Below are positions 1-13,196 of a DNA stretch of 64,000 nucleotides, one piece after another. Position 1 is the stretch's first letter, and each line of letters opens with the position of its first letter. The notes under the pieces were generated by a model. That model did no database searches. It was not told where the DNA came from and was given only the letters and a program-made list of their open reading frames with translations. The position numbers and the translations under genes are program-made. Location of the stretch: contig OX638348.1 in assembly GCA_951813085.1 (NCBI GenBank), positions 248,001-312,000 on the forward strand. Direction: 5' to 3'. This DNA is from an uncultured Opitutaceae bacterium (GTDB lineage: Bacteria; Verrucomicrobiota; Verrucomicrobiia; Opitutales; Opitutaceae).

Positions 1-1846
1 CTACATTACTGGTTAGCATATAAAACCTTGCGGGCCTTAAGTTCACATCCTTCTTTTTTTGATTTGGGAGGTGATTAAACCAGTTTTTTACTTGCCTGAA
101 AAATGAATGGCTATGTGTCAGAATAAAAAGCTGCCCTGAATCTTTTGTCCTTTCCTTCATGAATCCAAAGGCGTGGAAGAGTGCGTTGCTATCCAAACTT
201 GAGACCGGGTCATCGATGACGACGATACCATCCTCCAAGGAAAAGGACTTATCGCTGAGCGATTTCAGAAAGTATAAGAAAGTTATCGCCGTCCTCTCTC
301 CTTCGCTCAGATTTTTAGCTGGAGTTCCATTGCGGCTGATCTGGTAGCCATTGTCTTGAATTTCGAAGGTAAGCTCATTTCTGCCAAGGTAGGAACGGAT
401 ATCAGCATTCAGTTCATCAGCAGGTCTGAGGTGTTCTTCGATAGACTTTTCAATCTCGTGAATTTCAGTTTCTAATGCGGCAGCTTTATTTAAAGCCTCC
501 TTACGAGCGGTAGAGGCCAGATCAACTTTATTCCTTATCTGCTCATACTCCGCCAGACTTTGTGCAACCAGGGATTCTTCGATTGTTTTCCTCGCACCCT
601 TGATTACTGTTTCAAAATTGTCTGTCTCTTGGTTGTGTTTGCTTATCACCGCGTTTAAATCAGAAATCACTTTTATGTTGCCGACGACGACATCGAAACT
701 CCGCTCAATTGACTGGAATGGTGTTTGCGCCTTTTCTTTAAGGGCAGCAAGAAGGCTTTCCAGATATTCCTTGAGTCTGCCTATTTCGTCAGAAAAGTCT
801 CGGTGTTTAGTGTCGAACTCACTTTTGAAATGATTATACAGACCCAGTCGGTTTGGTGTGGCACATGATTTTAAAGATTCAATCGCTAGCTTCACGACCT
901 CAGACTCACTTTCGATCTCGCGAATTAATGCGTTGTATTTGTCGTTGAAGTGAGCTTCCAACTCCTGAATACGGCCATCAGGCAGAGGTTGGCCACAAAA
1001 GAGGCAATCATTGGAATTATCATTTTTATGCTTTGCCAGACCAGTTTTCACCCAGCCAGAAAGCTCTTGGTCGTTTTTGAGAGCTTCTATGACTGAAGAA
1101 ACTACTGTTTTCTTGAGCAAAGTAACGACTTGATCGGTCAATTGTTGGGTATCAGGGTAGCTAAAATTCAGAATTTGTAATTTATCGAGTCGGACCGACT
1201 CTTTCTTCTTTTTCTGCGCGTCGAGGTCAGATTCGTCCAGGATCCTTATTTTTTGCTTAGTATCAGGAAGCTCAAGCAGCTCATCACATTTCAACTGGTA
1301 AGTGCCCTTGTCATAATTGTTGTAAGGATTATTTCCACCTGATGATCTCAGTAATTCTTTGATGGATTTAGCCCGCTCCTTTTTTAAATCATCGAGAGCC
1401 TTTTCTGATTGGTGTTTCTCAGCCTCTTTTTTGCTACCTTCCTTCTCGACCTGGGCGCGATCCTTCTTGAGCTTTTCAACTTCTTTTTGCTTCTTGATAT
1501 TTTCTTCACCCAGGAAGAAGATGGGGGCTACCAAGCCATGACTGGTGAATACGTTATCGGCAATAAAGTCTTTATTGAAGACGCGGGCTTGAGGAAGCCC
1601 TTGAGCCGTTGAGAGAGCCGCCCCATCCACCTTACTTCCGGATATGACGAATTCGACCTCACCTTCTGTAACGCTCTCTCTCTTTTCGATTAACCGGAAT
1701 AAATTAGAAAGTGTCGATTTGCCGGAGCCATTCCAGCCATAGAACAAGTTCTTATCCTTAAAATCGCACAGCTCATCAGGCCAGTCGAATTCACGGAAGA
1801 TCCTGTAGTTTTTAATTTTACTTATTCGCTCAGTCGCCATTTTCAT
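1..1846 (-). CDS. AAA_13 family ATPase, RloC/PrrC-like (partial, runs off left edge)
   Basis: The minus-strand frame is open from an ATG at 1846 (a second in-frame ATG at 1840) to the left edge, so the C-terminus is missing. Visible parts: a Walker A motif GWNGSGKST at residues 37-45, a long charged coiled-coil middle, a zinc-hook-like CLFCGQ (Cys281 and Cys284), an ABC-type signature LSEGERTAITFLY near residue 510, a Walker B VVIDDPVSSLDS near 545, and an H-loop THSH. This layout fits the AAA_13 family, which includes the anticodon nucleases PrrC and RloC. In those proteins the nuclease residues lie C-terminal to the ATPase, beyond this window, so nuclease activity cannot be judged. It is the last visible gene of the defence operon, 59 bases after the helicase. 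A role as a suicide effector backing up the methylase system is inferred from the PrrC precedent. Confidence 0.85.
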   Translation of the reverse strand, partial: MKMATERISKIKNYRIFREFDWPDELCDFKDKNLFYGWNGSGKSTLSNLFRLIEKRESVTEGEVEFVISGSKVDGAALSTAQGLPQARVFNKDFIADNVFTSHGLVAPIFFLGEENIKKQKEVEKLKKDRAQVEKEGSKKEAEKHQSEKALDDLKKERAKSIKELLRSSGGNNPYNNYDKGTYQLKCDELLELPDTKQKIRILDESDLDAQKKKKESVRLDKLQILNFSYPDTQQLTDQVVTLLKKTVVSSVIEALKNDQELSGWVKTGLAKHKNDNSNDCLFCGQPLPDGRIQELEAHFNDKYNALIREIESESEVVKLAIESLKSCATPNRLGLYNHFKSEFDTKHRDFSDEIGRLKEYLESLLAALKEKAQTPFQSIERSFDVVVGNIKVISDLNAVISKHNQETDNFETVIKGARKTIEESLVAQSLAEYEQIRNKVDLASTARKEALNKAAALETEIHEIEKSIEEHLRPADELNADIRSYLGRNELTFEIQDNGYQISRNGTPAKNLSEGERTAITFLYFLKSLSDKSFSLEDGIVVIDDPVSSLDSNALFHAFGFMKERTKDSGQLFILTHSHSFFRQVKNWFNHLPNQKKKDVNLRPARFYMLTSNV

Positions 1847-1905
1847 ACCCTGTAGTTTTAAAGAGCGAAACCATGCTTGTCTGATTTAGAACCCTTGATA
1901 TTCCG

Positions 1906-4656
1906 CTACTTTACTTCACTCCACCCAGACATCATCAATTCAGTAAAATCACGGCGTGAAAGTACGTTTGAGCAGTCACGCCAATCGTTCTCCGATGGAG
2001 ACATGCTTTCGGTATAACGAAGATCGAAGCCATTAGCCTGTTTCTGGGCGTAAATATATTCATCCATTTTTTCGCCCATGGTTTCAATGTCCTCAATCCA
2101 CTCATCTCGAATGGTATCGGGTAAGGAGCCAAATAAGTTGTAACGGTCCTGCATTCGCTCGGACAGTTTTTCATAAACCTTCTCATCGACGGTTTGTTCG
2201 TTGACGAGATTGAGCATGCCGACTTTTTCTCGCACCTGCCCAAAACGCTTAATTCGGCCAATGCGCTGCTCCAGTTTGGTCGGATTCCATGGCAAATCAA
2301 CATTGATAAGCGCACCCAGAGTCTGTAGATTTAAACCCTCACAGGCAGCATCAGTGGCAACCATGATTTCAAGTTGATGCTCTGCGACCATGCGTTTAAG
2401 CGTTTCCCTTTCAATATTGACGCTATCACCTTTCTGATAAAGTCGGCTTCTGCCTGCACCTGCGTATAAACCTACAGGCTGATCTAAGTATCGAACGGCT
2501 AACGAATCGGCGACCCATTTCGCGGTGTCGTAATACTGACTGAAAATAATTACACCAAACTTCAGCCATTTTTCCTTCTCAAGATAATGAATGACGGCGT
2601 TGAGTTTGGGATCTTCTTCGATGCGCTCAAGTCTGGCTATCATGCGTTCCAGAACGGCGACTTCATCCGGGCTTTCGGCCTTGACTTCTATTAGCTGTTC
2701 GTCACTTTCTTCCCGCACTGTACGTCCTTCCAGTAGCATGCGGGCCGTATTCAATCCGGCAACAATACTCGAGCAAATGCGTTGCTCCATCAGGTTTTTC
2801 ATGAAACCGCTGCCTTTTCCACTTTGAGCAAGGGCTTTGCCAAAGTGCCGCGCTTCAGCATATGCCTGCCGGAAGTCCTCGCTTGTTCTCAGTGCTTTAC
2901 CCTCGAATAAGCTGTTAAATTGGTGAACTTCCTTCGCCAACTCTCGGTCAGGGTGAACATCCACGCCGATGCGAGGTAGCAGCCCGGCATCTTCAAGAGT
3001 TACCCGTTTGCGCAAAACGATGTGACGGATAAAAGGGTTTTCCCGTTGAAAAAAGCTGGCGCCTGCAATATCTCTGTCCAATTCATCTTCAAGGTATTCC
3101 AAGGAGTCATCAGACAGATCGGATAACGTGCTTTTTATATCCCACTTGTCATTCTGATTAATTAATCCAATATCCTGACGAAGAGAGCTGAATAGACGAC
3201 GTGCATATTGTTCGTTGGTCGAATCAACAACGGGCAAAGGTGAGCGAAGCAGCTCCCAGGCAAAACTGGGTTCAATGACTCGTTGCTCACCGGCCAATAT
3301 TGGCAGCACCTCCGGTGGGCGATGCCATTTGGCAAAATCATTACCAAGGACGAAATTGCCGCCTCCCTGATGCAGGATGCCAATCAAGTCCCACAAGTCA
3401 TCAGGGCGGGTTTGAATGGGCGTTGCTGTTCCCAAAATGACATGGTCAGATCGCGCGGCGATTTCACGCATAAAGGCGAGCAATTCGTTGTGAGAGCCTG
3501 CATCTTTACCGAAGCCCTGCCTGCTTCGTGCCTTATGCGCCTCATCTAAAATGGCCACGCCAAAGCGTAATCCAAGGAGGTGCTGTTTTTCAAGAGAATC
3601 GCTCATCATCAAGCCTGTTGATACGATCCCCACACGAAGTGGGCACTTTGCAATATGCTCCTGTCCAGCAGGTGAGATGATCCGTCCTTCAGGGTCCAGC
3701 CAGGCTTTCTTTTGGGTTTGCCACCTGGCACAAGGGATGCCTAGCTTGTCGATCATTTCAACTTGCCACTGCTCACAGAGAGTGGCTGGGGCAAAAATAA
3801 TAACTGGCTTACGCTTTTTGTTCTCTCTATCACTGAGCAAACACAGGGAAAGCGCTGCAGTGGCCATCGACAGGGTTTTGCCAAGCCCGACTTCATCCGC
3901 AATCAGTAAGCGTACAATGCCGTGGTTGTGGTAATGGCGGACGCACTCGCTGACAAACCCTTGTTGCCAGGGCTGCAAAGAAAAGCCTTGGCGATAAAGC
4001 GGCGACTCAATCAGCGCCGCAGGTGCAATATCATCGTCTTCGACAATATCTTCAAACAGCACCTCTCTACGAGAGCCACGGCGTTTAACTTCACGGATAA
4101 CCGCTTCAGGCAGTGGGCGGGCAGCGTTCCATAAATACTCGAACTCCTGCTCAATCCATTGCACGCCTTCTGGCGATTCGTCTTCCCACAGGATTTCATA
4201 ATGACGCTGCCAGCCACTGCTGGTTTCGTTCATGGAGCCAATGAAGCCAATTTTTCTTCCATCGGCTAATTCAATAACGCCGGCTTTGCCATGCAAAAAG
4301 CTGCAAATACTATCTGGAGCTACTCTAATTACCTGACCGTGTTTGGCGAGAAAGCTGTCGAGGCGACGATAGCGATCACGGTTCAGCAGGCTTTCGGTTT
4401 CTATATCCTGCTCATTCCATCGGCCAATCATCTTGGACTCGCGTAGTTGAGCCACTTTCAGGTCGTCAGGATGGATATCAACATTACAGACGATTTTTAC
4501 ATCCGGAATAGACTCAATCAGCTCATTGGCCACCTCAAACAGCGAGCTCGTAAAATAACCTGCAATGCGCTTATAACTGCGAGCACCTTTGAGATGCTCC
4601 AGCAGGAAGCTACGGTCGAGCCTATGGGTGCGCGAGGAAAATCGACGAATGCTCAT
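1906..4656 (-). CDS. PLD-domain SNF2-like helicase of a DUF499/DUF1156 defence system
   Basis: The protein has 916 residues. An N-terminal phospholipase D-like domain carries HGK at 122-124 and GSMN at 140-143, the HxK and GSxN elements of one PLD half-site. A superfamily 2 helicase core follows: Walker A in DEVGLGKT at 254-261, DEAH at 371-374, and a C-terminal helicase half ending in a QRIGRIKRFGQ motif VI near residue 785. The family is known as the phospholipase D-like anti-phage protein found with DUF1156 methylases (name recalled, not searched). It probably translocates on and perhaps cleaves foreign DNA, which is inference. It sits between the methylase (60-base gap) and the AAA_13 gene, all on one strand. 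It also resembles DISARM DrmD in general layout, but drmA and drmB are not present in the window. Confidence 0.88.
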   Translation of the reverse strand: MSIRRFSSRTHRLDRSFLLEHLKGARSYKRIAGYFTSSLFEVANELIESIPDVKIVCNVDIHPDDLKVAQLRESKMIGRWNEQDIETESLLNRDRYRRLDSFLAKHGQVIRVAPDSICSFLHGKAGVIELADGRKIGFIGSMNETSSGWQRHYEILWEDESPEGVQWIEQEFEYLWNAARPLPEAVIREVKRRGSRREVLFEDIVEDDDIAPAALIESPLYRQGFSLQPWQQGFVSECVRHYHNHGIVRLLIADEVGLGKTLSMATAALSLCLLSDRENKKRKPVIIFAPATLCEQWQVEMIDKLGIPCARWQTQKKAWLDPEGRIISPAGQEHIAKCPLRVGIVSTGLMMSDSLEKQHLLGLRFGVAILDEAHKARSRQGFGKDAGSHNELLAFMREIAARSDHVILGTATPIQTRPDDLWDLIGILHQGGGNFVLGNDFAKWHRPPEVLPILAGEQRVIEPSFAWELLRSPLPVVDSTNEQYARRLFSSLRQDIGLINQNDKWDIKSTLSDLSDDSLEYLEDELDRDIAGASFFQRENPFIRHIVLRKRVTLEDAGLLPRIGVDVHPDRELAKEVHQFNSLFEGKALRTSEDFRQAYAEARHFGKALAQSGKGSGFMKNLMEQRICSSIVAGLNTARMLLEGRTVREESDEQLIEVKAESPDEVAVLERMIARLERIEEDPKLNAVIHYLEKEKWLKFGVIIFSQYYDTAKWVADSLAVRYLDQPVGLYAGAGRSRLYQKGDSVNIERETLKRMVAEHQLEIMVATDAACEGLNLQTLGALINVDLPWNPTKLEQRIGRIKRFGQVREKVGMLNLVNEQTVDEKVYEKLSERMQDRYNLFGSLPDTIRDEWIEDIETMGEKMDEYIYAQKQANGFDLRYTESMSPSENDWRDCSNVLSRRDFTELMMSGWSEVK

Positions 4657-4716
4657 TTATGATGAATCTCCATCCGTGGTCGCTATTGAGTGATTAAATT
4701 CATTGGCGCTCTCGCT

Positions 4717-7700
4717 TCATTGACCTAGCGCTCGCATATTCTCAAGGCGTGCACCCAATACTTCAGCCACATCGCGGGTAGCTTTCTCCGACGCTTTCTT
4801 TTCGATGAAGGTCAACATATCGATCAATATCGGCCTCACCTCCATGAAGTCTGGTAGTTCCGCCTGCAACTGACTGATCACGGTTTGAGGCTCTTTTTCA
4901 CTGAGTATCTGCTGCAAGCCAATGACCAAGTGCCCAAGCCAGGTTGCCCCGATCTCGGTGCTGTCCGTCAGGTCGCGTGAGGCAAACTCGGGTATCCGCT
5001 TCAGCTGCGCCTTGTTGGCGGTCATGTTGCCCATCACCCGGCCGTAGTCTTCTACCCTGAATGCCTTGGCAAAGTTCTGGTAGTTGTCGAGCTTCGAGGC
5101 ACCGGTGGTTTCAATATCCATCATGCGCAAATAGAAGCGTTGAATGCCGTTAATTTTTTGCCAGGTGTCGGCTGACAAGCCTTCAGGTACTAGCAAGCTA
5201 TTAGCGGCTTCGGCAGCTTGTTGCACGATTTCATCAACAACGGTCACTTCACCCTTGGTCCGCGGCCGTAGGGCAAAGCTGGTTACATCCTCGCCGCCAA
5301 TATGGGTATAAGACGTCAGCACCTTCAGTGCTGCTGCGTAACCGGCCATTTGCAGGTCTGAATCGTTAAAGACGGGCTCACCCAACTTATCTTTAACCTC
5401 ATCGTTAAGGTGCATCATGGTTTCGATCTGGCGCTTTACTTCGGCGCGAACAGCAGGTAGCAGTCGCTGCTTAAAGCCCGCGTTTTCACCGGCAGGCCGC
5501 TTGCGTAGCATCAAAATGACGGTGCCTTGCACGTAACCGCCTTTTTTAAGCTCTGAGGTTGTTTCCGTGGCTATGTACCAGGCACCGACAACCTGAAGGC
5601 CTGCCGCCCAGAATATGCCAATCATGTCTGACCAAACGCCGGTATCCTGGTGGGTAAACATCACGCACTGCATGCCGTTATCGGGCATATGGTCTGCCAT
5701 GGCCTTATAGGCGCTAACCATGCCTTTGCGGAAATCATCCCCCGAGCCCTTGATGGCTAAGGCGCGACGGGAATCCCAGGTCCATTCATCGAATGGCTTG
5801 GGTGGGTTACTGCGTAGCCAGGCAATAAAAAATTCGGTGATCTCATGGTAATGAACCGCATCAGCATATGGTGGATCAGTAACATAGATATCACTAACCG
5901 TATCAATATTCCTTGCATCAATGTTTTTAACGCCACGATATGAGCTAATAGATTCAAATCGTGGGGCGCTAATTTTCCACGGTGTTGCACTAAAGGACCT
6001 GTTTGCCCAGTTAAAAATAGTTTTCAATGCTTGGTTGTCAAAAGTCGATTTCGCTCCGCCATCTCCTCCTGATTGCGAAGTTGCCCACCTACAAGACTTT
6101 GAATTGTTGTCTACGAACTTACTTACAATTAACGGATGTAATTGGGGGAATTCTGGAGTTGGATTCTTCAGAATAATGGTGAGATACAAAAGAACTCTTG
6201 GGGTAAACATGTGATGCCAATATGTCCAACCATTGGTACGTATTGGCCCTTCATTTTCTTTCCCTGTTTCTATGTGCATATCCGAAATAAGGCCAGCATT
6301 CTGCATGCCTTTAAAATTTAACCTCACTAGCTCAGTAATTCTTTCTTCTCGATCCAAGTCGGCCTTGGTGACAGATGAGAAGAAAGTATCCGGTCTGCTT
6401 GAGTTCAGGGTTCTCTTTTCATACCATTGGATTGCATATAGGCGCTCTTGAAGTATATCCTCTTCTGAAGGCATGAAATCATCTGCATTCCATAATCTAA
6501 GGCTGTTCTGAGTTACGCCATTTTCGTCCCTATATTCCCCTCGGATTGTTTTGATAGGTGTTCGATACTTTTTTCCATCTAGTTCATAAACTAGATCACC
6601 GCCTTGTATCGTACCTTCTGCCGCTTCGTTGAGTTCTGAATGGGAGACACCTGTTTTAACCTCAATATCAAAGCGCCTGTTTGTGTGGTCTGGAATGAGT
6701 TGGGCTACTACATTTCGTTTGGTTGAGATTACCCAGCTAGGACAAATCGGAACCATCCAGCCAGTTTCTGGACATCTTGTCTCTAGGCAATATAGAAATG
6801 CTTTCGCTCTGTTTCCTTTGTCATCTTCATCAATCTTTAAGGCCAGAATTTCGTCTTCAACTTTCTTGGCCCACTCATTTAATAGCTGGTTAATAGTGTC
6901 GGCATTATTTTGATTCGACCCAACAACATTCAAGGCTCCCCAAGTAAGCATACATGCAACCGGATTTAGGTCCGAGGCATATGCATCACATCCCATTCTC
7001 GCAGCTTCAAATGGAATTGATCCGCCTCCGCTGAAAGTATCGCTAACTATTGGGCGATGGCCATAGCGAAGCACACCCAGCTGCTCAACAAATTCTTGGG
7101 TTGACGATGTGTTGACACCATAGCTTTTTAAGTGGGTATTGACCCTTGACCAAATGTGTTCGTAGAGCCAATCCTGATCCACTTCCTCCGGCCTTTTGCA
7201 GAGACTGGCCTTTGCCTCATAGCCATCAATGGTTTCCAGATATTCGCGATAAATTGCCAGCTTTTCAGTTTCCTCAATATCGCGACGCCAACGCAGCTTT
7301 AAACCGAGAGCGTCGCTATTGATTGGAAACTGCAGGGTGTCGACATCATTGAATTTATCGTCGGTGACTTTGACATTGTGACTAAGATAATCCCAGGGAT
7401 TATGGAGCTGAATGCGCGCAGCGATTTCTGCGGGCTTAATGTTATTTTGAATGAGGGCGCGTTTGGCGAGGCTTTCGATATCAAAGCCCATCAGCATTTC
7501 GAATATTTCTAAATCTTTTTCGGTGTCTTCGGTTTGAGGTAAAAGACAGCCTAGTATTACAGACCTCACCAAAATTAATGGCTTTCGCCCCTTCCAATAA
7601 GAGCCCAAACCAGTCAATGTCTGAGCCGCGACCGCTTTACGTTCAGCCTGAGCCTCGTATGATATTTTTTGCGCGGGGTATGCGGCTTCAATGAGAGCGG

Positions 7701-7737
7701 GTGCATCCTTCAGCGCGAATGGAGTTAACTCTGCCAT
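4717..7737 (-). CDS. DUF1156 domain DNA adenine-type methyltransferase
   Basis: The protein has 1006 residues and is the modification component of the defence operon. An N-terminal DUF1156 region leads into an S-adenosylmethionine motif DTFSGGGSIPFEAARMG starting at residue 233. The catalytic DPPY of amino-methyltransferases is at 621-624 in TDPPYADAVHYHE. The order (SAM motif before DPPY) and the size match COG1743 adenine-specific methylases. The start abuts the DUF3780 stop codon with no gap, so the two are probably translationally coupled. By analogy with restriction-modification, it likely marks self DNA so that the helicase and ATPases act on unmarked phage DNA. Target sequence and base cannot be read from the protein. 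Confidence 0.9.
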   Translation of the reverse strand: MAELTPFALKDAPALIEAAYPAQKISYEAQAERKAVAAQTLTGLGSYWKGRKPLILVRSVILGCLLPQTEDTEKDLEIFEMLMGFDIESLAKRALIQNNIKPAEIAARIQLHNPWDYLSHNVKVTDDKFNDVDTLQFPINSDALGLKLRWRRDIEETEKLAIYREYLETIDGYEAKASLCKRPEEVDQDWLYEHIWSRVNTHLKSYGVNTSSTQEFVEQLGVLRYGHRPIVSDTFSGGGSIPFEAARMGCDAYASDLNPVACMLTWGALNVVGSNQNNADTINQLLNEWAKKVEDEILALKIDEDDKGNRAKAFLYCLETRCPETGWMVPICPSWVISTKRNVVAQLIPDHTNRRFDIEVKTGVSHSELNEAAEGTIQGGDLVYELDGKKYRTPIKTIRGEYRDENGVTQNSLRLWNADDFMPSEEDILQERLYAIQWYEKRTLNSSRPDTFFSSVTKADLDREERITELVRLNFKGMQNAGLISDMHIETGKENEGPIRTNGWTYWHHMFTPRVLLYLTIILKNPTPEFPQLHPLIVSKFVDNNSKSCRWATSQSGGDGGAKSTFDNQALKTIFNWANRSFSATPWKISAPRFESISSYRGVKNIDARNIDTVSDIYVTDPPYADAVHYHEITEFFIAWLRSNPPKPFDEWTWDSRRALAIKGSGDDFRKGMVSAYKAMADHMPDNGMQCVMFTHQDTGVWSDMIGIFWAAGLQVVGAWYIATETTSELKKGGYVQGTVILMLRKRPAGENAGFKQRLLPAVRAEVKRQIETMMHLNDEVKDKLGEPVFNDSDLQMAGYAAALKVLTSYTHIGGEDVTSFALRPRTKGEVTVVDEIVQQAAEAANSLLVPEGLSADTWQKINGIQRFYLRMMDIETTGASKLDNYQNFAKAFRVEDYGRVMGNMTANKAQLKRIPEFASRDLTDSTEIGATWLGHLVIGLQQILSEKEPQTVISQLQAELPDFMEVRPILIDMLTFIEKKASEKATRDVAEVLGARLENMRALGQ

Positions 7738-8364
7738 TTAATATTCGTCTCCAAACAGGTCCAGATAAGGCACACCTGACTCCTGTATTTGATTGCGTAC
7801 AATCTTGCGTTCGCGTGGTTTTAACTGCTCGCTTTGTGCGACGTCGCCCAGCGCATGACGCAATGCCATGCGCCAGCCTTTCTCACCATCATTAATGCCG
7901 CCGGTGCTCATGGCGGTCATGCCAAACAACCACCATCGTTCTTCTGGCCTCAGTGCCAGCCAGTTGCGCACGGCCACCGATATTTTTTCCATTTCCCTGC
8001 CTTCTACAGCCCAGGCCAACACACATAGCTCTTTGCCCAGCAAACGATCCACAACGTTTTCGCCTACTTTCCAGGAGGCGGTTTTGACATCGTGGTTCTT
8101 CAGTCTGGCATTGAAGGTGCGTTGTACCTCAGCGCGAATGGCTGTCCATCGAGGGCGGTCTAATAACACGCGATCAATGACGGCAAACTCATCGCTTTGC
8201 GCCTGCAAGCCAAGGTACTCACTGATTTGCACCTTGCCAGTGTTTGCCTTCGGAATAATCACTTTAAAGTGGTGAGGGTCGCTGGTGGCAGGCACACCAA
8301 AGCCAAGCGTTGCATGTTTCACCGCCGTCTTGGTTGTCCTTGATGTTGCCTTTGCCATATTCAT
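7738..8364 (-). CDS. DUF3780 domain protein
   Basis: A 208-residue protein between the DUF499 ATPase (17-base gap) and the DUF1156 methylase (stop and start adjacent). The composition is soluble, with no signal peptide or membrane segment. Conserved-looking aromatic stretches include a WALRPEERWW-like region around residue 130. I assign DUF3780 from overall sequence and its fixed position in DUF499-DUF3780-DUF1156 operons. No catalytic motif is evident, and its biochemical role is unknown to me. It may be a specificity or bridging subunit, which is inference from context only. Confidence 0.8.
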   Translation of the reverse strand: MNMAKATSRTTKTAVKHATLGFGVPATSDPHHFKVIIPKANTGKVQISEYLGLQAQSDEFAVIDRVLLDRPRWTAIRAEVQRTFNARLKNHDVKTASWKVGENVVDRLLGKELCVLAWAVEGREMEKISVAVRNWLALRPEERWWLFGMTAMSTGGINDGEKGWRMALRHALGDVAQSEQLKPRERKIVRNQIQESGVPYLDLFGDEY

Positions 8365-8381
8365 AACCCCTGTTTTGGCGA

Positions 8382-11300
8382 TTACTCGTCTTGAGCAATG
8401 TCGCCAGGTTTCAACTCAATGCCAACTAACCTGGCGAACTCTTTGGCTTCAAAGCCATTTTCAAAGTCGATACCGTCTCTAACCGCAATCGAGACATTGG
8501 CATCCGCTTCGTTCAATACGTCCCGCAGACTATTCACCGTTTCCTCAATCATCGTGGCGGTGATATGTCGCTCGCCAAAGCGAATGCCAACCGTATTTTC
8601 ACCTTCACCAATTTCAATACGCACACCTTTAAAGCGCGTGTTCGCCTGGTCTTTGAAGCGGTTGATAACCGTGAATACTTTTTCTGTGGTATCGAGCGGA
8701 ACACGCTTGCCACTGTTCAAACGCGCGGGCTTGGTGTCATCAATTTGCACCGTTTTGTCACCGCTATGCGGAATCTGGAAGTCGGCCGTTTTGGTTGCTT
8801 CACCCGATTTTGCATAAACCAGCAAGCGGGCAGCTTCCGAGCCCACCTCAAACGAATCGCTGTAGGGATTTCCGTCTTTCGGATTCGAGCCGTCCAACGT
8901 GTAGTACATGTCGGCTTTCGGCGTACACTGCAAGGTAACCTTGCGCTTGTCTGCGGATGGGTCGATTTGATGCCTGATTTTCAGATCAGCCAGCCATCGA
9001 GTGGCAGAGCCGCTCTCATACTTTCCGGTCGGGTCGGCGACTTTGAAGTAGAGAGTGCCTTCTGTCGTACTGAAGTTCTCCGGATCATCAATTTTTGGAT
9101 CTGTCTCCAGTACTTCTGGTTTGGTTGAGTAATAAATAATCGGGCTTTCGCCTGCGTTTCTCGGTGTCAGACTAATCAAGGTTTCGCCAGTCTCCGGGCT
9201 GGTCCCTACCAGCGAAACGTTGACGCTGGTTTTTTCTTTAGGGAAGGGGCCTTTTTCAATGTAGCCGTCTTCCCCTAAACGCCAGCGCCCCTGCTTGAGG
9301 GCTTCGGTTTTCAGTGTGTCCATACCGCCGCTGCCGGGCATCCAAGGCCAGCCTGGATTGCACTTGGCTCGGTTGACCACGTCTTTCCACGGCGTACGAC
9401 GGTTACTTGCGCCGGAAGGCCATAGTTCAGATTCGGCCATAGCAAAATACTGGCCGAAGTCATCTTTCAGATCTGCGGCCATCTTATAGTTGGCTCGGGG
9501 ATCTGCCATCAGACCTTCAATTTGAGCCTCGGCAGATTGGTCGCCTTCGCCGACTTTCAAACCATTGTCGATGGTGACTTTGAGCAGCCGCTCTGAACTA
9601 TCGAGCTCATCAATACCTGGGAAGAGTATGGTGTTGTATGCCGCTGACAAGGCTTTGGTAAAGCGGCCCTCAGCCTCTTCCAGCCTGTCGCGGGCTTCTT
9701 CATGCAAGGTGTCACCGGCCTTTAGGCGCTTTTCTATTTGTTCGATGGCATACAACTCACGTAGGCGATCTTCGACTGCATCCGCCATGAGACTGTCCTG
9801 TCCAGTGAGTACCAGCAGGTTGTTCTTTTCTTGCTGAAACTCAAAGAAATTGGTGAGTTCGCGGGGCGGTACCTTGCCATCAGGCTTGATCACGATCAGG
9901 ACGCGAGGACCACTCAATTTAAGCTCGTCCATGCGCGGTAGAATCTGTACTTCCTGGTAGGCATTGCGGCGATTGGGTTGCAGGATTCCATTGAGCCGAT
10001 TGATTAAGGCCTGATCAATTTTAGGCTGCGGTATTTCTTTCGCGTTACGCTCAATCTGCCGCGATAGGTTTTCAGTTTCTTTGATGAAGAAGCGCTGGTC
10101 TTCGCGGTGTAAATACCAGGCTTGCTCACGTAGTTTCTGGAGCGCATCAAGGAACTCATCCGCTTTACGATTGGGTGCTGCAAGGAACTCAATGACTTCA
10201 CTTTCCGACAGGCCAATGCGCCCACCCACTGCACGTGACAATGAAGAGGCAAGCAGTAGAGTCATTAATTGGCTGGCTGCATCGTTACTGAGCTCGCTAC
10301 CGATGTTTTCGGCAATGGCGTCACCTTTGTCTGCAATGTCTCGGGTGACCGCTGGAATCAGTTTGGGCGAGATTCGTTCTATCTCATCCTTAACTTGCTC
10401 GTCATTGAGGTCCAGGTGCTGCGTGCCGACAAGGAATACATCGTCTGTCTGGCGTTGCTTCACGCTTTTGAGCAAACGAGCGGTAAACTGCATTAGGCCA
10501 CGCGTTTGTCTGAAACCTTCGTTCTCTTTAAACAGGGCTACCAGATGCTTGAATGATGGATGGAATGGATAGGTCTCTCTTACCTGCTCAGCAATTTGCT
10601 CGATACTTGAAGCAATGATGTATCCGCCATCTTCGGCCTTTTTGACTTGTTGTGCGTACTCCTCAGCGACATCGCTGATTGTTTGTTCATCTGGCAACTC
10701 ATCAATCAGTCGCTTTTTTAGGATTTCATAGATTTCATTACCCGATAGCTGCACCGGCGTAATGGTCATCGACTGTCGGCGGGTTTCTTGCTGCAGGTTC
10801 GAAATGGCTTCTTTTAGCGCCTTGGTTTGGGCGCCATAACTGCTTGTCAAGTTGGCAATGACGATACAGCAGTTCGGAAGTTCCAGCGCTGCACTCATCA
10901 AGGTGCTCAGGCTGTACACCACCATGTTGGCGAGCGTGCCGGAGCCGTAGACCTGAGTGCTTGCGTTATCCAGGTAAGGTGGAAGCTCGTCGATCATAAT
11001 CAGCGTGGGGGTGTCACCGATGATCTCTTTCCACTTTTGCTGGTCAACAGACTTTGGGCCATTTACCCAGTGTTCTTTGATTTTTTCGGACTCACCCAGC
11101 TGAGTGGCAATTTCACCCCAGATATAGTTGTCAGGATTATTGCGGCCGTTAAACGCTGCGATTCGTGCATTGCCGAAGTCCAGGCGTTCATTTAAGTCGG
11201 CAGGCAGAACTTCGGGACGTAGATACGCTTGTTTCGCCAGCAGTCCCAGTGCAATCATCATATGGGTTTTACCACCACCCATGGCTTGGGTAAGTTCGAA

Positions 11301-11507
11301 AACAGCTTGATCAGACTTGCCTGAAAGGCGAAGCATGCCTTCGCGAAGGAGCTGCTCCATGCCGTGGGTGACGTAGTTTCGTGAGAAGAACTCTTTACCG
11401 TCGCCCGCGTCGTTAATGAGATCAGCCAGATTCTCAATTCCCTGGCTCATTCTGTAATCCTGAATGACAGGATTAAAGCGACACGCCTGTTTAACTGTCT
11501 TGATCAT
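8382..11507 (-). CDS. DUF499 P-loop ATPase of a defence system
   Basis: The protein has 1041 residues. A Walker A-like MGGGKTHM lies at residues 76-83 and a Walker B LIMIDELPPYLD around 169-180, so it is a P-loop ATPase of the COG1483/DUF499 type. A C-terminal part from about residue 750 is beta-rich and may contain a chitobiase-like or Ig-like fold, with text such as YYTLDGSNPKDGNPYSD. It is the first gene of the operon. An AGGA ribosome-binding site lies 9 bases before the ATG. Only 16 bases separate the start codon from the terminal repeat of the IS element upstream, so the native promoter appears lost. The family is regularly annotated as anti-phage associated, but its mechanism is not established to my knowledge. 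Confidence 0.88.
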   Translation of the reverse strand: MIKTVKQACRFNPVIQDYRMSQGIENLADLINDAGDGKEFFSRNYVTHGMEQLLREGMLRLSGKSDQAVFELTQAMGGGKTHMMIALGLLAKQAYLRPEVLPADLNERLDFGNARIAAFNGRNNPDNYIWGEIATQLGESEKIKEHWVNGPKSVDQQKWKEIIGDTPTLIMIDELPPYLDNASTQVYGSGTLANMVVYSLSTLMSAALELPNCCIVIANLTSSYGAQTKALKEAISNLQQETRRQSMTITPVQLSGNEIYEILKKRLIDELPDEQTISDVAEEYAQQVKKAEDGGYIIASSIEQIAEQVRETYPFHPSFKHLVALFKENEGFRQTRGLMQFTARLLKSVKQRQTDDVFLVGTQHLDLNDEQVKDEIERISPKLIPAVTRDIADKGDAIAENIGSELSNDAASQLMTLLLASSLSRAVGGRIGLSESEVIEFLAAPNRKADEFLDALQKLREQAWYLHREDQRFFIKETENLSRQIERNAKEIPQPKIDQALINRLNGILQPNRRNAYQEVQILPRMDELKLSGPRVLIVIKPDGKVPPRELTNFFEFQQEKNNLLVLTGQDSLMADAVEDRLRELYAIEQIEKRLKAGDTLHEEARDRLEEAEGRFTKALSAAYNTILFPGIDELDSSERLLKVTIDNGLKVGEGDQSAEAQIEGLMADPRANYKMAADLKDDFGQYFAMAESELWPSGASNRRTPWKDVVNRAKCNPGWPWMPGSGGMDTLKTEALKQGRWRLGEDGYIEKGPFPKEKTSVNVSLVGTSPETGETLISLTPRNAGESPIIYYSTKPEVLETDPKIDDPENFSTTEGTLYFKVADPTGKYESGSATRWLADLKIRHQIDPSADKRKVTLQCTPKADMYYTLDGSNPKDGNPYSDSFEVGSEAARLLVYAKSGEATKTADFQIPHSGDKTVQIDDTKPARLNSGKRVPLDTTEKVFTVINRFKDQANTRFKGVRIEIGEGENTVGIRFGERHITATMIEETVNSLRDVLNEADANVSIAVRDGIDFENGFEAKEFARLVGIELKPGDIAQDE

Positions 11508-11591
11508 GCTTAACGTTCCTAGTTGGACCCCGCAGTTTAGCCCGGTTTGAATGAGAGATTCTCGACGGGTTTCTTGTTGTTGGGCTTGGGT

Positions 11592-12488
11592 TTAAGCTGC
11601 CTGGGACGGAGATCGCCCGAAGGGCGGTCGGAGCCGCAGGCAGGCTGGATTTGCCTTGTGGCAAACTCGCTGGGCGTTAGCAAGCCTCGATCCATGGGGC
11701 CTATGATTGCTGCAGCAGTCCTTCCAGTCCGCGAAGATCACGCGCGATTCGCTGAGCGTGCGGATCAGCTCGCGGTCGAGGCGTTCCTCGCGGAAGCGGC
11801 TGCTGAAGCTTTCGGCGTATCCGTTCCGCCAGGGGCGGCCCGGATCGATGCATAGAGCCTCGATCCCGTTCTCGGCAAGCCAGCCCTGGATGGCCTTGGC
11901 GATGAGCTCGGGCCCGTTGCCCGAGCGGATGCATTCGGGAGCCCCATGCTCGCGGATGGCCTCCTGCAGCAGGGCCAGCGCGTCGGAGGCCTTGATCGCC
12001 CGGTCGGCATGGATGCAATGGCGCTGGCGAGCGCATTCGCCTATCAGGTCGAAGGCCCGCAGCCTGCCTCCCCGCTGGGCGTAGTCCGAGACGAGGCCCC
12101 AGGCCCGGACGCGGTTGCGGCGAAGCGCCTTCCGCGGAAGCCCCGCGCAGAGCCCCTGCCGCCGCCTGCGAGGGCGGCGAGGCGGAACCTGCAGCCCCTC
12201 CTCCCTGCGGACGCGCTGGACCAGCTTCTTGTTCGCGCGGTAGCCAAGCGTCGGATGCTCCCCCGGAAGGCGGACGATCTCCGGCTCCAGCAAGCGCTTC
12301 CCCTCGGGCTTGGGCTTCGGAAGGTAGCGGAGCGTCGAGCGGCTGATCCCCAGCCATCGGCAAACGGCTCTCCCGGAACGCGACAGCGCGGACTGGACCT
12401 TCGCCGCAATCCCGCGCCGGCGCTCCGGGCTCAGAGGTTTTCCCCAGCGCGATCTCCAGGGCCTTGGTCTTGAGCAGCTGGTCGGCAA
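11592..12488 (-). pseudogene. IS3-family transposase OrfB (integrase domain), catalytically degraded
   Basis: Homology to the DDE transposase runs from KPLSPERRR near 12440 to the end. The nominal TTG at 12488 only marks where the frame opens. Family members have WSMDFVSD and IRSDNGPEF for the two catalytic aspartates. Here the matching text reads WGLVSD, two residues short with the Asp absent, and IRSGNGPEL, where Asp has become Gly. The third catalytic residue, Glu in NGYAESFSSR, is kept. With two of three catalytic acids missing and an OrfA-OrfB frameshift, this copy should not transpose by itself. It could still be moved in trans if its ends remain functional. Confidence 0.75.
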
Positions 12489-12696
12489 GCAGCTTCTTGA
12501 GCTCGGTGTTCTCCTTCTCCAGGTCGCGGAGGCGCTGAGCCTCCTTAAGATCCATGCCTCCGTACTTGCTCTTCCAGCGGTAGAAGCTCTGCGAGCTGAT
12601 GCTGCGCCTGCGGCAGATCCCCTCGGTCCGAAGCCCCGTGTCGGCCTCCCTCAGTATGCGGATTATCTGCTCGGTCGCGCGTCTTGTCTTTTTCAT
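12439..12696 (-). CDS. IS3-family transposase OrfA (helix-turn-helix part)
   Basis: The first 86 or so residues from the ATG at 12696 match OrfA of IS3 elements of the IS407 type: an HTH region with RRRSISSQSFYRWKSKYGG followed by a leucine-zipper-like KENTELKKLLADQLL. The frame carries on without a stop to 11701 because the DNA is GC-rich, but the protein stops resembling OrfA after ALGK (about 12439). OrfB similarity resumes in the frame that skips one base at GGGGAAAACC. That is a +1 relation, not the -1 slippage used by intact IS3 elements, so a one-base insertion is the simplest explanation. Confidence 0.75.
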
Positions 12697-12763
12697 CGAT
12701 GATGTCCTTTCGTTGATCGACGAAAATCACCTCATCAAAAGTGGGCTAGTTCGCGGGGTCCCA

Positions 12764-13196
12764 ACCAGATATACCTCAGGATGTAAGAGATTTAAGAAAA
12801 AGAACCTGAAAAGCAGAACAAGAAGCTGCACTCGACGCGGACAAGCCGCTCGTCTGAGCTCGATGTTGTCGTGCTCGCTTCGCACCGTCCGAAGAGAGAG
12901 CCCATTAAGGACAGTTTTCGAGATCGGTCTCTCCATTGTAGGGTAAAATATAGGGTCGGCACCTGTTAATTCCAGAACGTGGCCTTTAGACCCCTTTTTC
13001 TTACCTCAGACATGATTCTGGAGGGGGGTAGGCTACCTCCATTGGAAGGCGATTCATGCAGTACACACCCCGAGAAAAATGTGAGCCATTTTTTTAAGCT
13101 CAGATGTGGAATCCGGACCGGCCTTACTCCTTGAAAACCGAACTTTGTTGACCAATGCGGGCAGCCGACTTTGACTAATCAAAGTCACCTACGATT
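12764..13196. other. Gap between IS element and phage remnant
   Basis: About 430 bases with no credible gene. A 69-codon minus-strand reading frame at 12727-12936 overlaps the IS end and has a low-complexity Leu/Phe-rich stretch, so I do not call it a gene. I see no tRNA, clear terminator or direct repeat. A G-run (GGAGGGGGG) near 13020 and an AT-rich patch near 13090 are the only standout compositions. Confidence 0.5.

Follow-up and report, generated by a model that had tools for sequence, protein, structure and literature searches.

The stretch of DNA analysed here (the window, 64,000 nucleotides) comes from an uncultured Opitutaceae bacterium and corresponds to G000:C1:248001-312000 of its 4.85-Mb single-contig genome; coordinates in locus L003 equal window positions plus 4000. 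Five genes of a putative defence operon lie at its left end, all on the minus strand. They encode, in gene order, a DUF499 AAA+ ATPase (1041 aa, 8382..11507), a DUF3780 protein (208 aa, 7738..8364), a DUF1156 adenine methylase (1006 aa, 4717..7737), a Snf2 helicase with an HKD domain of the phospholipase D (PLD) type (916 aa, 1906..4656), and a Rad50-like ATPase of the RloC type with C-terminal residues of an anticodon nuclease (1..1846). The last gene runs on for 431 further bases past base 1, to genome base 247570, and is complete at 758 aa (genome 247570-249846, L003 3570-5846). The intergenic gaps are 17, 0, 60 and 59 bases from DUF499 onwards and all five frames are intact; the cluster is real and tightly packed. 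No promoter-like or terminator-like site is listed on the coding strand of the 59-bp gap between helicase and RloC, in a scan whose overall number of sites does not exceed that of shuffled sequence. An earlier note, made from the sequence letters, had described these co-oriented packed genes, and its family names are confirmed by Pfam, NCBIfam and PADLOC.

All four core proteins score above the equivalog cut-offs of the NCBIfam "anti-phage" models, namely NF042962 for DUF499 (1532 bits, cut-off 1200), NF042961 for DUF3780 (284, cut-off 200), NF042963 for the methylase (1324, cut-off 1000) and NF042964 for the helicase (1200, cut-off 1100). The PADLOC models DUF499, DUF3780, DUF1156_MTase and PLD_Helicase were matched at 360-1576 bits, with the DUF499 protein at 1576, and Pfam identifies DUF499 (2e-22) and DUF3780 (PF12635, 1.2e-76). 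The helicase, which is the predicted primary nuclease, carries at its N-terminus an HKD nuclease (PLDc_2, residues 19-176) in place of TUDOR, and no TUDOR family is among its Pfam matches; H122, K124 and GSMNET at 140-145 are identical in 49/49 aligned helicases. A stretch matching the Pfam families CHB_HEX_C_1 and Fn3_assoc is located at residues 854-897 of DUF499. Type-2 BREX-related (BR) systems were defined by Rakesh and Krishnan (Nucleic Acids Res, January 2026, PMC12839542) and occur in 1120 taxa, with DUF3780 in 98% and the HKD-helicase in 83%; fibronectin type III (FnIII)-like domains before the DUF499 C-terminus are reported for 53% of the members. The same components appear in the window: a core of DUF499, DUF1156 N6-methylase with an internal recognition insert and Snf2 helicase, a standalone DUF3780 gene marking Type 2, the HKD domain of the helicase, and the FnIII-like stretch of DUF499. 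Traits expected of such a system also include an RRM-like fold at the C-terminus of DUF499, adenine methylation and restriction of phages. Because the core passes the NCBIfam cut-offs and includes the marker HKD-helicase and DUF3780, genes 1-4 are assigned by their profile matches to the published Type-2 BR system. The locus differs from the published description in having RloC as a 3' accessory and in the loss of a small ribbon-helix-helix (RHH)-like gene. The earlier note had called these four genes a known anti-phage set of poorly understood mechanism; the set is indeed known and its mechanism unclear, but it is no longer unclassified.

Type-1 BR, or Hma, systems share a homologous ATPase, methylase and helicase with this locus. 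However, the HmaA, HmaB and HmaC models score 112, 77 and 165 bits here, against 1494, 1455 and 1576 bits for the models of the present set, and DUF499 leaves no room for an N-terminal HEPN domain (NF042962 covers 3-1039 of 1041). The statement that DISARM and BREX genes are missing holds for the six genes between two flanking insertion sequence (IS) copies, the sixth being a truncated SbcD-like gene. Neither drmA nor drmB is among them, and the helicase matches DrmD at 178 bits or less against NCBIfam cut-offs of 610 and 950. PglZ and BrxA/BrxB of canonical BREX are also absent from these six genes in Pfam, NCBIfam and PADLOC.

In gene 5, the Pfam family AAA_13 spans residues 14-738 (1.5e-160). 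PADLOC gives PDC-S06 (877 bits), a label that is a table entry in PMC11514479, plus a weak PrrC match of 37 bits over 466-742. Among 41 aligned RloC-like proteins of at least 640 aa, the window included, C281 and C284 are each conserved in 41/41, R668 in 40, E672 in 39, S712 in 37 and H713 in 39. The spacing in gene 5 is Arg-x3-Glu-x40-His, with S712 before H713. The published RloC signature is Arg-X3-Glu-X36-52-His, often with Ser before His, and alanine at any one of the three residues inactivated Geobacillus RloC (Davidov and Kaufmann 2008, PMC2610378). The C-terminal nuclease domain of RloC was placed in the HEPN superfamily by a 2013 paper on HEPN domains (PMC3710099). With 758 aa, gene 5 lies within the 658-897 aa of RloC proteins and shares their Rad50-like ATPase, CX2C zinc hook and triad (PMC2610378; Klaiman 2013, PMC3874168). 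It differs from them in standing behind a BR core instead of a type I or III restriction-modification (R-M) locus, and excision of the tRNA wobble nucleotide, which marks RloC, would be its predicted activity. PrrC, in the EcoprrI system, likewise sets the triad of an anticodon nuclease beside a methylase-based defence, but PrrC is half the size (341-416 aa), has no zinc-hook insert and is associated with type Ic R-M (PMC2610378, PMC3874168); the hook is present here and no hsd gene is among the six genes of the cluster. Because its size, zinc hook and sequence fit RloC, gene 5 is taken as an RloC-type protein and not PrrC, and is by its residues a predicted anticodon nuclease. The earlier note had suggested reading left of base 1 for the nuclease residues of a PrrC-like guard; R668, E672 and H713 were found there, in a protein that answers to the description of RloC.

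The place occupied by RloC was compared across 120 loci with a DUF3780 gene (2.07 Mb, with a few duplicates), consisting of the window, 4 plasmids, 5 loci of the host phylum, 80 loci from GTDB genomes and 30 from IMG/VR. The GTDB part is the best 80 of 551 relatives from a scan of genome contigs, so that the sample leans to close relatives; the plasmids are 4 (H1-H4) of 20 records with DUF3780. Between the window and L022-L026, DNA similarity is lost about 15 bp or less from the stop codon of the helicase. In 71 loci the helicase end is complete and is followed by 700 bp or more of sequence. A co-oriented frame lies within 300 bp of the helicase in 37 of these 71, a count that includes three duplicate pairs (L027/L102, L077/L078, L049/L106) and mechanical frame assignments, several short ones of which are probably no genes. 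Ten of the 37 proteins, hand-picked, were scanned with Pfam. Two were Mrr, and there was one each of UvrD helicase, GIY-YIG with DUF4357, DpnII-MboI-type nuclease and GmrSD; the rest gave one weak zinc-finger match and three proteins without a family. RloC is found in this place once, in the window. The place 3' of the helicase is a variable accessory slot.

Other accessory places were seen inside the operon. About 1.8 kb of extra sequence lies between DUF3780 and methylase in L041, L044, L046 and L049; in L061, L066 and L071 the extra sequence, about 3.1 kb, separates methylase and helicase. A row of several partial DUF499 matches stands ahead of the BR operon in L052 (Achromobacter pulmonis, 1602-10001).

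The best explanation of the locus, to which a probability of about 0.6 is given, is a Type-2 BR system of R-M-like action whose 3' accessory slot is filled by an anticodon nuclease, RloC. The DUF1156 enzyme would methylate adenine in self DNA, as in its family, at a motif set by its recognition insert. DUF499 and DUF3780 may help to recognise unmodified incoming DNA, as proposed in PMC12839542, and the HKD-helicase would cut it. RloC would form a separate, self-inhibited second layer that detects linear DNA ends by means of its Rad50-like head and zinc hook. Such ends, arising from the restriction step or from phage attack on the chromosome, may switch RloC on, and its C-terminal domain would then cleave tRNA anticodon loops, as published for other RloCs, stopping translation and with it the infection. 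RloC would be carried by the operon, and contact with the BR proteins would not be needed. This explanation is favoured by the shared strand and 59-bp gap of helicase and RloC, by RloC genes in R-M-like operons elsewhere and by the different nucleases that relatives have in the slot. Published work describes RloC as requiring linear DNA and ATP hydrolysis and as activated by inducers of DNA breaks (PMC3874168). Accessory nucleases are proposed as back-ups in PMC12839542, HEPN, OLD-ABC/TOPRIM, Schlafen and PIN proteins among them.

The earlier note had tied a tRNA-cutting backup to the methylase system in the manner of PrrC. In such an arrangement the BR complex would silence RloC and free it once a phage inhibits the BR system, and EcoprrI with PrrC is a precedent (PMC2610378, PMC3710099). 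This guard is very unlikely here, because gene 5 answers to the description of RloC and published RloC is activated by DNA ends without its R-M genes. In Acinetobacter baylyi, R-M mutants behaved like the wild type in RloC activation, and the paper allows that R-M proteins may take part when a phage infects (PMC3874168). The counts given below also show no recurring linkage of RloC with the BR core. The two-layer model is preferred over the guard because activation by DNA ends needs no BR contact.

Several observations weigh against the two-layer model, and they concern the predicted structure of gene 5, the distribution and composition of RloC, and the region upstream of DUF499. An AlphaFold2 model of gene 5 from 10 sequences has a mean pLDDT of 75.4 and a pTM of 0.47. 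Its best PDB fold match is Rad50 of an Mre11-Rad50-Nbs1 complex (E 4.1e-8), which counts in favour of the explanation, but at a TM-score of only 0.23 over the whole length; further matches are SMC heads, chains of the Lamassu LmuACB complex, AriA complexes and retron complexes. The pLDDT falls below 50 at 713-718. The modelled C-terminus is helical; the 50 PDB matches listed include no HEPN structure, so that the putative fold of this nuclease domain is assigned by sequence. A phmmer search of PDB gave nothing at 0.001, and its top match under the looser E limit of 1 was AriA (0.0023).

By profile, RloC occurs in 3 of the 120 Type-2 BR loci, the window, L011 and L057, and is thus not a stable partner of the core; a 17-bit match in L104 was not counted. 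The RloC of L011, a Pseudomonas plasmid, is 25% identical and is encoded on the other strand, 216 bp past the helicase; that of L057 (Achromobacter) is 26% identical, upstream and divergent. Of the 120 loci, only the window has an RloC that immediately follows the helicase in the same orientation. In the reverse direction, searches with RloC gave 79 loci (1.35 Mb) from the host's own phylum, viral contigs, two plasmids (H21 and H22, of 159 records with an RloC relative) and the phyla of the Methylophaga, Spirochaetaceae, Anaerolinea and Nitrospira records. On the viral contigs, P0001 as sole query found no relative and alignment A3 found at least nine. One of the 79, L195, comes from G389, a genome chosen for its BR core on another contig. 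The profile detected an RloC frame in 76/79 (none in L156, L162 or L191), and within the fetched flank DUF499, DUF3780 or the methylase was present in 0/76 of these loci found by other routes. In the Methylophaga phylum, RloC was found in 25/398 genomes at 27 places (1e-30), and by a rough estimate, taking genomes of about 4 Mb, about 0.04 RloC neighbours would be expected by chance in 2 Mb. The two further cases, L011 and L057, exceed this and are judged to reflect the usual clustering of defence genes. The recurrence of an AAA_13 gene beside this core, proposed in the earlier note as a check, was therefore not found.

These counts favour the possible, though less probable, reading that RloC merely shares a defence island with the BR core and has no functional tie to it beyond perhaps a shared transcript. 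The orientations in L011 and L057 point the same way. So does the G+C content, 0.43 for RloC against 0.47-0.52 for the core genes, which fits a separate arrival of RloC. On the other hand, RloC in the window stands on the same strand at a gap of 59 bp, and RloC recurs in other R-M-like operons. In the host phylum, L149, L153, L154, L155 and L161 each have, as judged by eye, an RloC frame within a type I- or type III-like operon. The 2013 HEPN paper places RloC-family genes in R-M neighbourhoods, a few in a Pgl operon, and also reports HEPN fused to DUF499 (PMC3710099). That Pgl (BREX-family) operon and those R-M operons resemble the present locus in that RloC is co-located with a methylase-based operon of the wider BREX kind; the core is Pgl there and DUF499/DUF3780 here. 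The earlier note had held that gene 5 beside unrelated genes in relatives would speak against its proposal, and this is half the case: relatives of gene 5 do adjoin other genes, but the co-oriented 59-bp gap keeps operon membership plausible in this genome. RloC is apparently a one-off plug-in and forms no fixed new system with the core.

Upstream of DUF499, an IS3-like element of 1246 bp (copy B, 11522..12767, minus strand; family name given by eye) ends 14 bp before the start codon. The 14 bases between (11508..11521, minus strand) are native and contain AGGAA, by eye a possible ribosome-binding stretch; similarity to L022-L026 ends at window 11518-11519. Of the loci, 94 have a DUF499 start with 400 bp or more ahead of it. 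In 58 of these 94, for example L072 and L029, a gene of about 65 aa that looks by eye like an RHH regulator ends at or just before the DUF499 start, which it touches or overlaps, and some Pseudomonas loci have a different small frame in its place. The terms RHH, ribbon-helix-helix and CopG have no occurrence in the main text of PMC12839542. In the window, the RHH-like gene and the upstream sequence common to relatives are gone and IS copy B stands in the position of the gene. Because of this loss the operon may be mis-regulated or silent.

It is thus conceivable, and considered unlikely, that the locus is a decaying relic silenced or mis-regulated by IS insertions. IS copy B replaces the RHH-like gene, copy A (L003 1856-2973) truncates the SbcD-like gene, and the element has 67 matching pieces in this genome, nine of them full-length including copy B (40/55 first-look candidates scored). 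However, the five frames are intact and AGGAA is kept before DUF499. Comparison of DUF499, DUF3780 and helicase with four relatives (L023-L026) gave nonsynonymous divergence (dN) of 0.024-0.044 against synonymous divergence (dS) of 0.66-1.61, with no sign of long relaxed selection. The element has the ends TGGTTGG...CCAAC, and by eye no target-site duplication was seen at copies A, B or five other copies inspected. A composite transposon is not claimed despite the inverted flanking copies, in view of the nine full-length matches, the 67 pieces and the lack of target-site duplication. A search for an ancestral empty site was also unproductive: in 3/3 genomes of the same genus the island flanks, recR and nuoB, do not adjoin, being widely separated in G223 and on separate contigs in G289 and G310.

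The core genes show a further pattern. At the protein level, DUF499, DUF3780 and helicase share 92-96% identity with the Methylophaga, Moraxellaceae, Halopseudomonas, Haliea and Halomonas records (except a C-terminal DUF499 piece in L022, 84%), and the methylase is 63-77% identical. Recent transfer from Gammaproteobacteria was considered and rejected, because the dS values given above speak for an old divergence under strong constraint; dN/dS is about 0.02-0.05. Among the window and L023-L026 (Moraxellaceae, Halopseudomonas, Haliea, Halomonas), mean pairwise identity is 93.9% for DUF499, 94.0% for DUF3780, 96.3% for the helicase and 73.8% for the methylase. In 50-residue bins the methylase falls to 32-65% over 251-650 and keeps 88-100% beyond. 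The variability profile places the insert at about residues 250-620, between DTFSGGG (233) and DPPY (621). Across these five operons the insert (265-610) is 42-52% identical, against 83-94% for residues 801-1041 of DUF499. In a larger set of 49 operons (52 with four full-length frames minus 3 identical duplicates), 78 of 1176 pairs have a methylase C-flank (640-960) at least 90% identical; their median insert identity is 51%, with 53/78 below 55%. The reverse pattern, an insert of 83% above a flank of 76%, was seen for L030 with L012 and with L089, as expected from domain exchange.

Since the insert is exchanged while the other three proteins are near-invariant, we infer that target specificity resides in the methylase and that the other three proteins form a constant machine. 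The Type-1 section of PMC12839542 partly gives a sequence-sensing role to the DUF499 C-terminus. As the main sequence-specific sensor, the DUF499 C-terminus is hard to square with a constant core and an exchanged insert.

Behind RloC, on the same strand at a distance of 64 bp, lies the sixth gene, a truncated SbcD-like frame of 186 aa (L003 2945-3505, genome 246945-247505) whose end is located inside IS copy A. It matches Metallophos over the cut-off (1.3e-9) and SbcD (TIGR00619) at 8.8e-12 and 45 bits, below the cut-off of 78, and is shorter than the SbcD/Mre11 models (252-438 positions). Scanning with our own pattern the 79 loci with an RloC frame (the 76, the window, L011 and L057) found a phosphoesterase frame directly behind RloC on the same strand in three, the window, L161 and L163 (script distances 65, 28 and -3 bp), all from the host phylum. 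In the 120 BR loci the same pattern found the frame of the window and unrelated-looking ones in L063 and L082. The contig of L163 (1-2657) begins inside the RloC gene, which is 82% identical over residues 82-758; G359, the genome of L163, does not appear in a set of six genomes with DUF3780. L161 (about 3761-10140) has a type III-like Mod/Res pair followed by RloC, the phosphoesterase and a Rad50-like frame of 907 aa. The window esterase is 25% and 29% identical to those of L161 and L163 over about 95 residues. It is doubtful, but worth stating, that RloC might travel as a cassette with an Mre11/SbcD-like nuclease, at times with a Rad50-like ATPase, behind restriction cores; the nuclease would process ends and RloC would read them and cut tRNA. 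Mre11/SbcD appears in PMC2610378 as an analogy that is set aside there. The adjacency is a lead and not a result; if the cassette were real, the window, L161 and L163 would represent three separate assemblies.

The core and the family of gene 5 are both known; their combination is rare and is in line with the published theme of back-up effectors. RloC, PrrC and anticodon have no occurrence in the main text of PMC12839542, and the "HEPN" class of its supplements may include such genes. An RloC beside a DUF499/DUF3780 core was not found in print, in that main text or in a literature search without most subscription journals, and the words BREX and RloC occur together in no title or abstract among the matching papers. 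With the Pgl operon case (PMC3710099), RloC had earlier been reported together with a system of the BREX family. The near-invariant machine and the exchanged recognition domain indicate which part of BR systems probably encodes target specificity, a role partly left to DUF499 by PMC12839542. Under the two-layer model, the window would offer an intact example of a methylation-based, BR-class defence acting on DNA, followed by a self-destruct enzyme that acts on RNA and detects DNA ends unaided. Co-operation of two defence layers without protein contact would thereby become testable with two genes.

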